Assembly: GCA_937872925.1 (NCBI GenBank)
Contig: CALMUT010000079.1
Location: 1 to 64,000, forward strand
DNA from: an uncultured Myxococcales bacterium
Lineage (GTDB): Bacteria > Myxococcota_A > Polyangia > Polyangiales > Polyangiaceae
Direction of reading: 5' to 3'
Length of the DNA: 64,000 bases
The position numbers were made by a program, and so were the translations under genes. This document shows positions 34,388 to 61,760 of this stretch, in pieces. A model generated the notes under the pieces. That model saw only the letters and a program-made list of their open reading frames with translations, did not search any database and was not told where the DNA came from. Positions within the stretch are counted from its first letter, which is position 1. Each line of letters opens with the position of its first letter.

Positions 34388-34553
34388 GCTCCTACCATAG
34401 GCTCGCTGGCCCACTTTGGGGAATGGTGATGCAGGCAACAGATGCCCTTCTCCTCGGACTGGGTTGGCTGTACGTGGCGCTGAGAGCAATGCACGCCTAC
34501 ATCCACACAGGCGACGCCTTGCGACAACTGGACTGCCGCGTTAGAAGGTTCCC

Positions 34554-35228
34554 ATGACAATGTCGCCTTTGCGACGCACTAGCCTCGCACTGTTGCTGAG
34601 CGCCTTCGCGCTGATCGGCTGCGACGACAAGAAGCCCGCCAGCGAACCCGCGCCCGCCGCGGTAACGCCCGTCGCATCTGCCGCATCTGCCGCAGCGCGG
34701 CCCAGCGCGGCGGAGAAGTCCAAGTTCCCGCCGGAAGCAAGACGTAACTCGGCGCCGAAGGGCATCGCCGAATCAGCGCTGGTTGTGGGCAAGCCTGCGC
34801 CCGCCCTGCAGCAACTCGCCTCCAGCGCGGGACTGTGGAGCCGCAGCGACAAAGTCACGGTGCTCGTCTTCTACCGAGGGCACTGGTGACCCTTCTGTCG
34901 CAAGCAGCTCGGGGAGTTGCAAGGCAAGCTCGCGGAGTTCGAGAAGAGAGGCGCCGAATTGGTCGCACTCAGCGTTGATTCCGTGGAGGATGGCAAAGCG
35001 CTGGCCGAACGGGAGAAACTCTCCCTGACGCTGCTGTCGGATCCCACGCGCAAAGTGATTCAGGCCTTCGGTATCGACGACCCGGGCAACGAAATCTCGT
35101 GGCCGGCGGTGTATGTGCTCGCGCCCGACGGCAGTGTGGCCTGGCGGGCGTTTCTGCAGAGCTACAAAGAGCGCCCGCCGGTAGAGGACATCCTTGCCGC
35201 AGTCGACTCCGCAAAATCCGCCAAGTAG
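34554..35228 (+). CDS. Peroxiredoxin/thioredoxin-like selenoprotein with in-frame UGA (Sec112)
   Basis: One 224-residue gene that conventional calling splits into two ORFs. Residues 1-22 are a lipoprotein signal (ALIGCD), followed by a Pro/Ala linker and an AhpC/TSA-like thioredoxin fold. The codons read FYRGHW, TGA at 34887-34889, then PFCRKQLGEL, and remain in frame to YKERPPVEDIL at the end. Related peroxiredoxin-like proteins have WCPxC here, so UGA sits at the first redox residue, giving UxxC. A hairpin just downstream supports Sec insertion. AGAAGG lies 5 nt before ATG 34554. The protein probably reduces peroxides or disulphides at the envelope. SelA, SelB, SelC and SelD would have to be elsewhere in the genome. 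Confidence 0.85.
34904..34920 (+). promoter_or_regulatory. Candidate bacterial SECIS hairpin
   Basis: Stem GCAGCTC / GAGTTGC (7 bp including one G-U pair) closes a GGG loop at 34911-34913, about 22-24 nt after the UGA. This spacing and a G-rich apical loop resemble the E. coli fdhF element bound by SelB. The bulged U of the E. coli element is not evident. Confidence 0.6.
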
Positions 35229-35326: not shown

Positions 35327-35575
35327 ATGACGCTTCGACGCATCATTCGGTTGCATCTTCCTCCAGCCATTGCTTTCACCGTCTTGACCGGGGTGCACGT
35401 CGGTGTTGCTTGGGCACAGGACGCTTCGGATGCCGGCGCGGACGCGATGGCCAGTGCCGACGCAGCCACAGACGCAGCGACGGACACCGACGGCGGAACG
35501 GCAGACAATGACGTCGGCTGCGGAGGGTCGGACCCCCAATCTGGCGCGATCTTCATGGGCGCTGGCTGCTGTTGA
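35327..35575 (+). CDS. Signal-peptide-bearing small protein ending in Gly-Cys-Cys, candidate modified peptide precursor
   Basis: An 82-residue protein: Sec signal ending VGVAWA (residues 1-30), an Asp/Ala-rich linker to residue 63, then a short Cys-containing end CGGSDPQSGAIFMGAGCC with Cys65, Cys81 and Cys82. TAGGAA lies 6 nt before the ATG. Its stop overlaps the TTG start of the next gene. That gene carries an RRE-like domain and leads into an EpiD-like flavoprotein region, which in known systems decarboxylates a C-terminal Cys of a peptide. A ribosomally made, modified peptide is therefore possible, though a cleavable export signal would be unusual. Confidence 0.65.
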   Translation: MTLRRIIRLHLPPAIAFTVLTGVHVGVAWAQDASDAGADAMASADAATDAATDTDGGTADNDVGCGGSDPQSGAIFMGAGCC

Positions 35576-35985
35576 CGGCGCGTTTACAACGCGCCGCCTT
35601 CGTGCGGATCTACGAGAGCGACGCGGAGCTGAACGTGATCACTCCGAAGGGTCGCGTGCAGCAGTTCCGCGACGCTTCGGCGGAGCTCACCCGGGCCGTG
35701 CTCGACTTCTTGTGCCAACCGCAGACGCACGAAACGCTGGTGGCGCACATCTCGGAGCTGTCCGGGCAAGACGCTGCAACGGTAGTCGCTGAAACAGTAA
35801 CGGCGCTCCGAGCCGCCGGCGTGGTCGAAGCTGCTCCCGACCCGCGTGCGGCTCGTCCGACACAGTCGCATGCCGGCGCGCAAGTGGTCGTTGCGCTTTG
35901 TTGCTCGCGCGGGGGCTATTCGTTCGAGTTGCCGCGACCGAAAACGCCCTCGCCTTCGTCAGTCCGATGGCGCTTTCGGCACTGA
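35572..35985 (+). CDS. RRE/PqqD-like domain protein, N-terminal half of a disrupted flavoprotein gene
   Basis: 137 residues starting at TTG 35572, overlapping the precursor gene stop. Residues 9-92 resemble a PqqD-like winged helix (FVRIYESDAELNVITPKG, then ELTRAVLDFL, TLVAHISEL, VVAETVTALRAAGVVE), the recognition element that binds leader peptides in modified-peptide pathways. Residues 105-112 (AQVVVALC) look like the first strand of an HFCD flavoprotein, whose continuation lies in another frame from 35898. A short deletion or sequencing error probably separates the halves. The last about 25 residues are therefore likely out of frame. Confidence 0.65.
   Translation: MTARLQRAAFVRIYESDAELNVITPKGRVQQFRDASAELTRAVLDFLCQPQTHETLVAHISELSGQDAATVVAETVTALRAAGVVEAAPDPRAARPTQSHAGAQVVVALCCSRGGYSFELPRPKTPSPSSVRWRFRH
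35576..35596 (+). promoter_or_regulatory. Perfect 9-bp hairpin at a gene junction
   Basis: CGGCGCGTT pairs exactly with AACGCGCCG around a TAC loop, beginning the base after the precursor's stop codon and 1 nt after the TTG start of the next gene. It has no T-run. It could lower read-through into, or translation of, the downstream gene, as seen after precursor genes in some peptide operons. Confidence 0.6.
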
Positions 35986-36416
35986 CGCATCAGTCCGTCG
36001 TCAGCAGCATGCGGTCGGAAGACGCAAGCGAGCCGGCGGTGCACATTGCTTTGGCGGACTGGGCCGACGCAGTCGTGGTGTATCCGGCGACGGCAACGAC
36101 CCTGGCGCGGATCGCCAGCGGAGATTGCTCGACGCTGGTTTCTGCCTTGGCGATCAGCACGCGGGCGCCCGTTCTACTTGTACCCGCCATGAACGAAAAC
36201 ATGTTTCGCTCGCCGTCGGCGCAGCGCAATCTGGGCCAGCTGCGTCAAGACGGCTTTCTGATCGCGCATCCGTCTATGGGCTACGAGATCGCGACAGCGC
36301 CCGAAGACCGCCGGCCAAGCTTCGGTGGGGCGCCCCCCGTGGGCGCGGTGGCGGATATGGTGGAGGCGATCCTTGCTAGCGCTGGCCAAAAAAGCGCTGC
36401 AAGGCCCGGGGATTAG
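35898..36416 (+). CDS. HFCD-family flavoprotein (EpiD/Dfp-like), frame-shifted C-terminal part
   Basis: About 172 residues matching the HFCD flavoprotein fold: RVAATENALAFVSP, HIALADWADAVVVYPATA, LVSALAISTRAPVLLVPAMN near the middle, then NLGQLRQDGFLIAHPSMG. The His of the active-site region (HIALADWAD) and PAMN are present. In Dfp/EpiD-type enzymes they bind FMN and decarboxylate a cysteine. The first strand and FMN-phosphate loop are missing from this frame; the strand sits in the gene at 35572. The order precursor, RRE, HFCD suggests one gene broken by a deletion of about 12-14 codons plus a frame change, or a real pseudogene. Confidence 0.65.
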   Translation: MLLARGLFVRVAATENALAFVSPMALSALTHQSVVSSMRSEDASEPAVHIALADWADAVVVYPATATTLARIASGDCSTLVSALAISTRAPVLLVPAMNENMFRSPSAQRNLGQLRQDGFLIAHPSMGYEIATAPEDRRPSFGGAPPVGAVADMVEAILASAGQKSAARPGD

Positions 36417-59936: not shown

Positions 59937-61760
59937 CTAGTACCAGACGCGACTGACGATGCCGCTGATGGTGTTGAACTGCGCAATGTTGTCGGCGGTC
60001 CCGCCTATCACCAGGCGGTAGACCGCGGGCGTTCCGCTCAGTTGCACCGCGCCCGCGACGATCTTGGCGTTTTGCCCCAGGTTGGGATGAATGACACCGT
60101 ACTCGCCCTGGCTGCCCCAGCTCGGGTCGGCTTGACCGTTGCGCCGCAAGCGCAACGCGGCTGGCCCTGGGTTGTTGCCCCCCGTCGCGTTGCCCAATAC
60201 GACGATGCGCTGATCGGGGAATTGTACAGCGTCCGCAGCCTCGACGGAATTCGCGTTCACGGCCACCGACACGAGTCCGTTCGCACCGAAGGAAGTGTCG
60301 GGCTGACCGTCGGGCAGATAGCGACGCACCCACAAACTCTTGTTGGTGGAACCGGCCACGAGCACCTTGTTGTCCGCTTGAGCGATCACGGTCTTGACCT
60401 TGTCGTCCACGCCGGAAGCGCCATAGGTGACGAAGCCGGTGCCGTTGAATCCGGTGTCAAGAGCCAGGTTGGAGTCGAGGGCCACCAACTTCATGTCGGC
60501 TTTGCCTCCGCCGTCCACGACGGTTCCCGCCATGTACACGCGTCCGTCCGGCGTCGCGGCGAGGGACGAGTGCGTGGAGCCCGTCATGCCGAAGGCCTTG
60601 GCCGACTTTTGCTGAAAGCCTGCGGAACTCAACTGTGCAACGGCGGAGGCGTTGTTGGAGGTCCCGAACGCGAACAAGCGGGTGCCGCTCGTGCCTTCGA
60701 ACGCCGCTACGCCGGTCGACAAGTCCGTGCCGCCCATGTCCAACACCGTGTAGCCGGGTCCCGGACTACCAAAGGCCTGGTCCAGCCCGAGATTCGTCGT
60801 GGAGTTCTTGCTCAGAGCGAAGTCGTTGGTGCGATCCGTCGCGAACAGTGCGTGGCCCGTGGAAAGCACGGCAATGCCCCGGGCGATGCCACCCGGAGAA
60901 CAGGCCGAACAGGGCTTGATCGAGGCTTCGGAATCCACCTTCTTGCCGTCTGCTGCCAGGATGCCGATCAACGGCGCCTGGCTCAAACCGACTTTGTAAC
61001 CGCCGAAGAGGATGCGGGCGTCCCCTGCCACGCCGATGTCGTAGATTTCGACTTCCTTTTGGCCGAAAGACTGCATGTGAATGCCACTAGAGGCGAAGCC
61101 GGTGTCGAGCGAACCGGACTTCTCGGTGATGATAGTGTTGACGCTCGCCTCGTGGTTCAGACTCGCCGAAGTCCCGAGGATCTTCGTCGTGAACGTGCTG
61201 CCCACGGCGAGCGGAGCCTTCGCGCTGAGCTGAAGCTCGCCAAAGGTCTCCCCCGCGACAATCGTGAGGCTTTGCGCCGTCAGCCCCGTGGGCGGTGAGC
61301 CGAGCGTGACATCCACCGCAGCGGTGAACCCAGCTCCGCGCTGGATCTCGACCGGGAGGAAGTGCGTACCACCCAGACCAATCTGCACCTGCGAGGATAG
61401 GATCTGAATGCTGAAGTCGTTGACCAGGCTGCCGTCACTCTCAGCGCTCGCGTCACCTACCGCGCCACCGCTGCCCGCCTGACCGCCCGTTGCGGACCCA
61501 CTGCTGCCTCCGCTGCCACCGGATCCGGCAGATGCGTCGCTGCCACCGGATCCGGCAGATGCGTCGCTACCACCGGATCCGGCAGATGCGCCGACGCCAC
61601 CGGACCCCGATGACGCGCCGACGCCAGCGGAACCTGCGCTCGCACCCGCGCCGCTGGCCCCCTGGACCGAAGTGTCCTCGATGCCGACGATGCCCTGACA
61701 GGCGACCAGCCAGCCGAGAGCCACCAACCCAGATGGGAAGGCAAGTGTCCTGCGAGTCAT
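59937..61760 (-). CDS. Delta-60 repeat lipoprotein
   Basis: A 607-residue lipoprotein (lipobox LVACQ, then GIVGIEDTS, a signature I associate with myxobacterial surface lipoproteins). A 75-residue Gly/Ser/Ala linker includes a 27-bp tandem repeat. The body has an Ig-like part and several delta-60 repeats: SLDTGFASSGIHM, LDTGFNGTGFVTYG, QPDTSFGANGLVSV, QADPSWGSQGEYG, each about 55-60 residues. A propeller is expected. It converges on the PEGA-like gene, 8 nt apart. Confidence 0.88.
   Translation of the reverse strand: MTRRTLAFPSGLVALGWLVACQGIVGIEDTSVQGASGAGASAGSAGVGASSGSGGVGASAGSGGSDASAGSGGSDASAGSGGSGGSSGSATGGQAGSGGAVGDASAESDGSLVNDFSIQILSSQVQIGLGGTHFLPVEIQRGAGFTAAVDVTLGSPPTGLTAQSLTIVAGETFGELQLSAKAPLAVGSTFTTKILGTSASLNHEASVNTIITEKSGSLDTGFASSGIHMQSFGQKEVEIYDIGVAGDARILFGGYKVGLSQAPLIGILAADGKKVDSEASIKPCSACSPGGIARGIAVLSTGHALFATDRTNDFALSKNSTTNLGLDQAFGSPGPGYTVLDMGGTDLSTGVAAFEGTSGTRLFAFGTSNNASAVAQLSSAGFQQKSAKAFGMTGSTHSSLAATPDGRVYMAGTVVDGGGKADMKLVALDSNLALDTGFNGTGFVTYGASGVDDKVKTVIAQADNKVLVAGSTNKSLWVRRYLPDGQPDTSFGANGLVSVAVNANSVEAADAVQFPDQRIVVLGNATGGNNPGPAALRLRRNGQADPSWGSQGEYGVIHPNLGQNAKIVAGAVQLSGTPAVYRLVIGGTADNIAQFNTISGIVSRVWY
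61513..61620. repeat. 27-bp tandem repeat in the lipoprotein linker
   Basis: Copies at 61513-61539 and 61540-61566 are identical. A third at 61567-61593 is nearly so, and a fourth is diverged. In frame they encode GSGGSDASA units. This is a linker-length polymorphism, not a CRISPR. Confidence 0.85.

Follow-up and report, generated by a model that had tools for sequence, protein, structure and literature searches.

A single gene on the forward strand of the window (the whole 64,000-nucleotide stretch analyzed here, from a soil-type, Polyangia-like bacterium), at positions 34554 to 35228, encodes what we believe with high confidence to be a lipid-anchored, extracytoplasmic selenoprotein in which an in-frame UGA is recoded as selenocysteine (Sec). 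For the translation part of this explanation, that the UGA is read as Sec, we consider the comparative evidence practically conclusive. One plus-strand frame extends from 34554 to 35225, and its sole interruption is the TGA at 34887 to 34889, which is codon 112 counted from the start ATG at 34554. Read as Sec, it gives a protein of 224 residues, from this ATG to the TAG at 35226 to 35228, with a predicted U112-P-F-C115 motif. A possible ribosome-binding site (AGAAGG, 34543 to 34548, plus strand) was noticed in the sequence 5 nt before the ATG. The initial annotation had reported two open reading frames in the same frame, split only by the TGA at 34887, and the peptide FYRGHW-[UGA]-PFCRKQLGEL across it; both descriptions were borne out. 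The TTG at 34917 is merely the first start codon past the TGA, and homology already resumes at 34890. Ordinary gene callers would nevertheless report two fragments where one enzyme gene exists.

The protein domain and the homologues both span the UGA, in support of the earlier proposal of one gene with Sec at codon 112. The match to PF00578 (AhpC/TSA) crosses it, covering residues 94 to 197, and scores 92.1 bits for the joined protein (cut-off, 26); taken apart, the C-terminal half scores 68.3 bits and the N-terminal half gives no match. When the two halves were searched separately against related loci, they were found adjacent in every close homologue, with only the same TGA between them, as in L023, where the N-terminal half occupies 1636 to 1797 and the C-terminal half 1801 to 2106, separated by the 3-nt TGA. 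Across 145 related genomes, the majority of the best matches contain exactly one in-frame TGA; one of them, L023, has an additional TAG past its C-terminal end. In the loci that were read out, the TGA sits at the same codon as in the window gene. A scan of species-representative genomes and the relatives found TGA at this codon in 39 distinct loci and a cysteine codon (TGC/TGT) in 57. The cysteine-containing relatives read FYRGHW-CPxC (e.g., L039, L059, and L070), in agreement with the WCPxC expected for them at the outset. Homology was also claimed to run on after the UGA, and relatives do align on both of its sides; unrelated sequence after the UGA in cysteine-less relatives, which had been named as an argument against a single gene, was not seen among them, the codon being Sec or Cys.

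The hosts of the Sec loci belong to the Myxococcota (including Polyangium isolates), Acidobacteriota, Planctomycetota, and Poribacteria. This distribution bears on whether a TGC or TGT codon was turned into TGA by a sequencing or assembly error, as could be suspected of an assembly in 377 contigs whose gene has cysteine-containing relatives. However, this TGA recurs in genomes from four phyla that were sequenced independently, Polyangium isolates among them, and is accompanied by tRNA-Sec and SelA. At the family level, an error is already refuted, and we assign it a vanishingly small probability. It is also very improbable that the UGA is a genuine stop, be it in a pseudogene or as a regulated truncation, with the downstream frame as a relict. 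A standard gene caller would indeed end the open reading frame there, and the N-terminal 111 amino acids could be exported as a stub, but such a stub would be devoid of any recognized domain and of half of the active site. Moreover, dozens of genomes that share this UGA retain the downstream half, which is under purifying selection, dN being much lower than dS both before and after the UGA (seven pairs; dS was near saturation in some). In a quick tree, the window gene adjoins L023 amid further Sec loci of the same family. As drawn, this tree needs at least six Sec/Cys changes; its starred branches are compatible with a single origin. A synteny comparison revealed no shared neighboring genes around the window gene in the close homologues examined, and phage records gave distant matches only (28 to 34% identity), one of them annotated as prxU.

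Two further arrangements were observed among the homologues. In Candidatus Poribacteria (L081 and L083), two neighboring Prx-like genes both have an in-frame UGA and a hairpin of their own. In an Acidobacteria metagenome-assembled genome (L130, 1794 to 3383), a long C-terminal extension, possibly a fusion, comes after the Sec Prx-like domain, and 446 codons separate the UGA from the next stop.

Downstream of the UGA, the sequence folds into a hairpin of the bacterial SECIS type (GCAGCUC-GGG-GAGUUGC, 34904 to 34920, plus strand; loop at 34911 to 34913), identified by folding, by comparison with the SECIS model, and by family statistics. The GGG loop lies exactly 22 to 24 nt past the UGA, just where it had been placed by the initial annotation. 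The bacterial SECIS model calls for a loop of 3 to 9 nt with a G in its first two positions, a stem of 4 to 16 bp, a distance of 16 to 37 nt between UGA and loop, and a minimum free energy of at most -7.5 kcal/mol (PMC13188914, Fig. 2A). The hairpin in the window agrees with the model in every respect, having a stem of 7 bp, a GGG loop separated from the UGA by 21 nt, and minimum free energies of -7.7 kcal/mol for the 17-nt hairpin and -12.1 kcal/mol for the 44-nt region. Judged from the window sequence alone, it is not unusual (shuffle z = +0.32; synonymous-recoding p = 0.08), and its significance comes from the family. Because the hairpin overlaps the conserved coding motif QLGEL, synonymous recoding was used as the control: for each gene, 1000 recodings were drawn from the codon usage of that gene. 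In all 39 Sec genes, the fold was more stable than the average over the gene's own recodings (mean z, -2.04; 18 at p < 0.05), whereas the 57 Cys genes, a partial control in that the peptide at the hairpin site is mostly different, showed on average no excess stability in the same test (mean z, -0.25). Across the alignment of the Sec family, 95% of the stem cells are paired, and one synonymously free pair, in which base 3 of the Gln codon meets base 1 of the Leu codon, is GC in 30 cases, GU in 5, and AU in 3. At the family level, the structure is therefore conserved beyond what coding needs. Rfam gave no match in the window, nor around the UGA at a relaxed threshold. Two loci, L040 (genome G067) and L042 (genome G041), combine the motif QLVEL with an AGUUG loop in place of the usual GGN loop, which would represent a natural variant for SelB recognition.

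We also searched the window, on both strands, for TGA codons lying between coding-like frames, and only the one at 34887 has both homology and a SECIS-like hairpin. A second candidate, at 60613, has the only other strong hairpin and was discarded as a shadow frame of an opposite-strand gene.

The genome from which the window derives (9.39 Mb, 377 contigs, 95% complete) encodes the whole set of selA, selB, selC, and selD, for which the initial annotation had recommended a search. The tRNA-Sec scores 72 bits and has a TCA anticodon, and SelB, SelA, and SelD score 294, 487, and 299 bits, respectively; contig C218 carries selA, selB, and selC (tRNA-Sec) within a span of 14 kb. A genome without SelB and SelC had been named as evidence against Sec, and here both SelB and tRNA-Sec are present. 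Among the relatives, SelA was found above the cut-off in 18 of the 19 with a close Sec homologue and in 33 of the 126 others (Fisher p ~1e-8, with the 145 genomes taken as independent and no phylogenetic correction). The 19th Sec-bearing relative, G031, has no SelA above the cut-off; since it has a tRNA-Sec (69 bits), a gap in the assembly probably accounts for the absence of selA. UGA is the leakiest of the stop codons, and one might suppose that it is read here by a near-cognate tRNA or by readthrough that inserts Trp or another residue. Yet the aligned residue in the relatives is Cys, not Trp, and the SECIS-type hairpin is conserved and the Sec machinery present, which leaves this explanation extremely improbable.

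Two other genes of the same genome attracted our attention. Its own SelD is itself apparently a selenoprotein, with an in-frame TGA and the motif GGGUARK (contig C59, 14914 to 15831; L018/L054). In addition, a second Prx-like gene with an in-frame UGA (FFUPYCRKHL; contig C195, 18025 to 18471; L052) is distant kin of the window gene and is without the same hairpin motif.

While the Sec machinery is encoded in the genome, its use at codon 112 is what the family pattern leads us to infer: SelD would activate selenium, SelA would load it, and SelB with Sec-tRNA-Sec, guided by the hairpin 22 to 24 nt downstream, would recode the UGA.

We then looked at the protein. By inspection of the sequence, it begins with a lipoprotein signal peptide, MTMSPLRRTSLALLLSAFALIGC, with the lipobox LIGC (34554 to 34622, plus strand), and very probably it is exported and anchored as a lipoprotein. 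A similar lipobox was seen in L023, L025, L029, L034, and L040, and other homologues appear to carry an uncleaved hydrophobic anchor. In the AlphaFold model, a low-confidence linker (pLDDT, 54 to 60) leads from the signal to about residue 68. The AhpC/TSA peroxiredoxin-like domain, delimited by PF00578, pLDDT, and fold match, comprises about residues 73 to 224 (34770 to 35225, plus strand); it is predicted confidently after about residue 70, with pLDDT above 90 for most of it, and U112 stands just before the helix formed by residues 113 to 124. The closest solved folds are peroxiredoxins, the best being Mycobacterium tuberculosis AhpE (Z, 23.5; 1.4 Å over 148 residues).

The label "peroxiredoxin-like" given by the initial annotation therefore holds for the fold, to which the predicted structure and the fold matches both conform, but not for the catalytic motif. 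In the alignment to AhpE and Aeropyrum PrxQ, C115 (TGT, 34896 to 34898, plus strand) falls on the peroxidatic Cys of these true peroxiredoxins and is the putative resolving Cys of the UxxC motif, and P184 (35103 to 35105, plus strand) falls on the catalytic Arg. The canonical PxxxTxxC motif is absent from the window protein, its Pro being replaced by R108 and its Thr (Ser in PrxQ) by U112. Likewise, the protein lacks the catalytic Arg of peroxiredoxins (R116 in AhpE), with P184 aligned there; in 4xih, the R116A mutant of AhpE, an Ala occupies exactly the column of P184. Within the family alignment, R108, U112, and C115 are invariant, Sec being counted with Cys, and P184 is nearly so. In thioredoxin folds, CxxC together with a (cis-)Pro is the pattern of thiol:disulfide oxidoreductases. 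Because UxxC and a Pro are present and the catalytic Pro, Thr, and Arg are replaced, we favor thiol:disulfide-type chemistry on a peroxiredoxin scaffold over canonical peroxidase activity, and regard it as probable from the aligned residues. Sec112 would then attack an oxidized substrate, a disulfide or a peroxide, and Cys115 would resolve the intermediate via a selenenylsulfide, with Pro184 standing where peroxiredoxins have their catalytic Arg. The most likely job of such an enzyme would be to reduce disulfides or hydroperoxides outside the cytoplasm. A Sec protein with true peroxidase chemistry would be in keeping with the fold (AhpE Z, 23.5) and with the alignment of C115 to the peroxidatic Cys in AhpE and PrxQ; however, PxxxTxxC is broken at R108 and U112, the catalytic Arg has become P184, and the Sec is off the peroxidatic position, unlike in the TxxU Sec-peroxiredoxins (PMC13188914). 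We consider it rather unlikely.

Selenoproteins with PF00578 and UxxC are already known as Prx-like thiol:disulfide oxidoreductases (PMC13188914, PMC1794560, PMC2398784), with UxxC or UxxU motifs, e.g., in Geobacter sulfurreducens (PMC13188914, PMC1794560). The window protein resembles them in its AhpC/TSA domain, its predicted UxxC, and the bacterial SECIS downstream; unlike them, it and several of its relatives bear lipoprotein signals. By its sequence it belongs to this known UxxC group, being placed there by PF00578 and UxxC as described. The Sec-peroxiredoxin PrxU (TxxU, NF040737) shares the domain superfamily, but in the window protein the Sec falls on the Thr position of PxxxTxxC and not on the peroxidatic position, and the match to NF040737 is 31.6 bits (cut-off, 270). 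The best NCBIfam match is the SelL-related NF040769 (SelL_rel_redox), at 53.9 bits below its cut-off of 120; both NF040769 and PF00578 match all 31 family members. AhpE, a 1-Cys peroxiredoxin and the closest solved fold, differs in keeping the Pro, Thr, and Arg that are replaced here. ResA/TlpA-type extracytoplasmic thiol-disulfide oxidoreductases have a thioredoxin fold whose active site is of the CxxC type. The window protein shares this type of site in kind and gives weak sequence matches to them, but its domain is of the AhpC/TSA type, and Sec would replace the first Cys. No NCBIfam model claims the window protein above its cut-off, and the family may well be misannotated in many genomes for this reason.

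Selenoproteins have been listed for one myxobacterium, Anaeromyxobacter (PMC1794560), and our literature search found no paper on selenoproteins in Polyangia, where the present group recurs, often with lipoprotein signals. Tentatively, these proteins might form a subfamily of extracytoplasmic selenoenzymes, anchored in the membrane, in which a peroxiredoxin fold would support thioredoxin-type UxxC-plus-Pro chemistry and which would make up a redox system of the surface or periplasm that depends on selenium; the subfamily would extend across Polyangia, Acidobacteriota, Planctomycetota, and Poribacteria, lack a curated NCBIfam model, and have no description in the literature searched. A cultured host, Polyangium fumosum DSM 14668 (L080), makes the family experimentally testable.

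Finally, the region that follows the gene (35327 to 36416, plus strand) harbors an 82-amino-acid signal-peptide-like open reading frame ending in GAGCC, a winged-helix-like segment, and an HFCD flavoprotein (PF02441) with a weak match to RiPP peptide-cysteine decarboxylase. The first open reading frame (35327 to 35575, ...GAGCC-TGA) was considered as a second selenoprotein and rejected: further stops lie beyond it and genome G001, of the same genus, has the same ending, indicating an ordinary stop. In G001 (L139), winged helix and flavoprotein form one intact open reading frame of 316 amino acids, preceded by a GAGCC-ending peptide, and in L140, L141, and L144 a small Cys-rich peptide precedes the flavoprotein, which itself extends into a region resembling a methyltransferase. 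The locus is possibly an undescribed RiPP-like cassette. Compared with L139, the flavoprotein gene of the window is frameshifted at about 35890 to 35930 and seems short by about a dozen residues, reflecting either gene decay or an assembly error.
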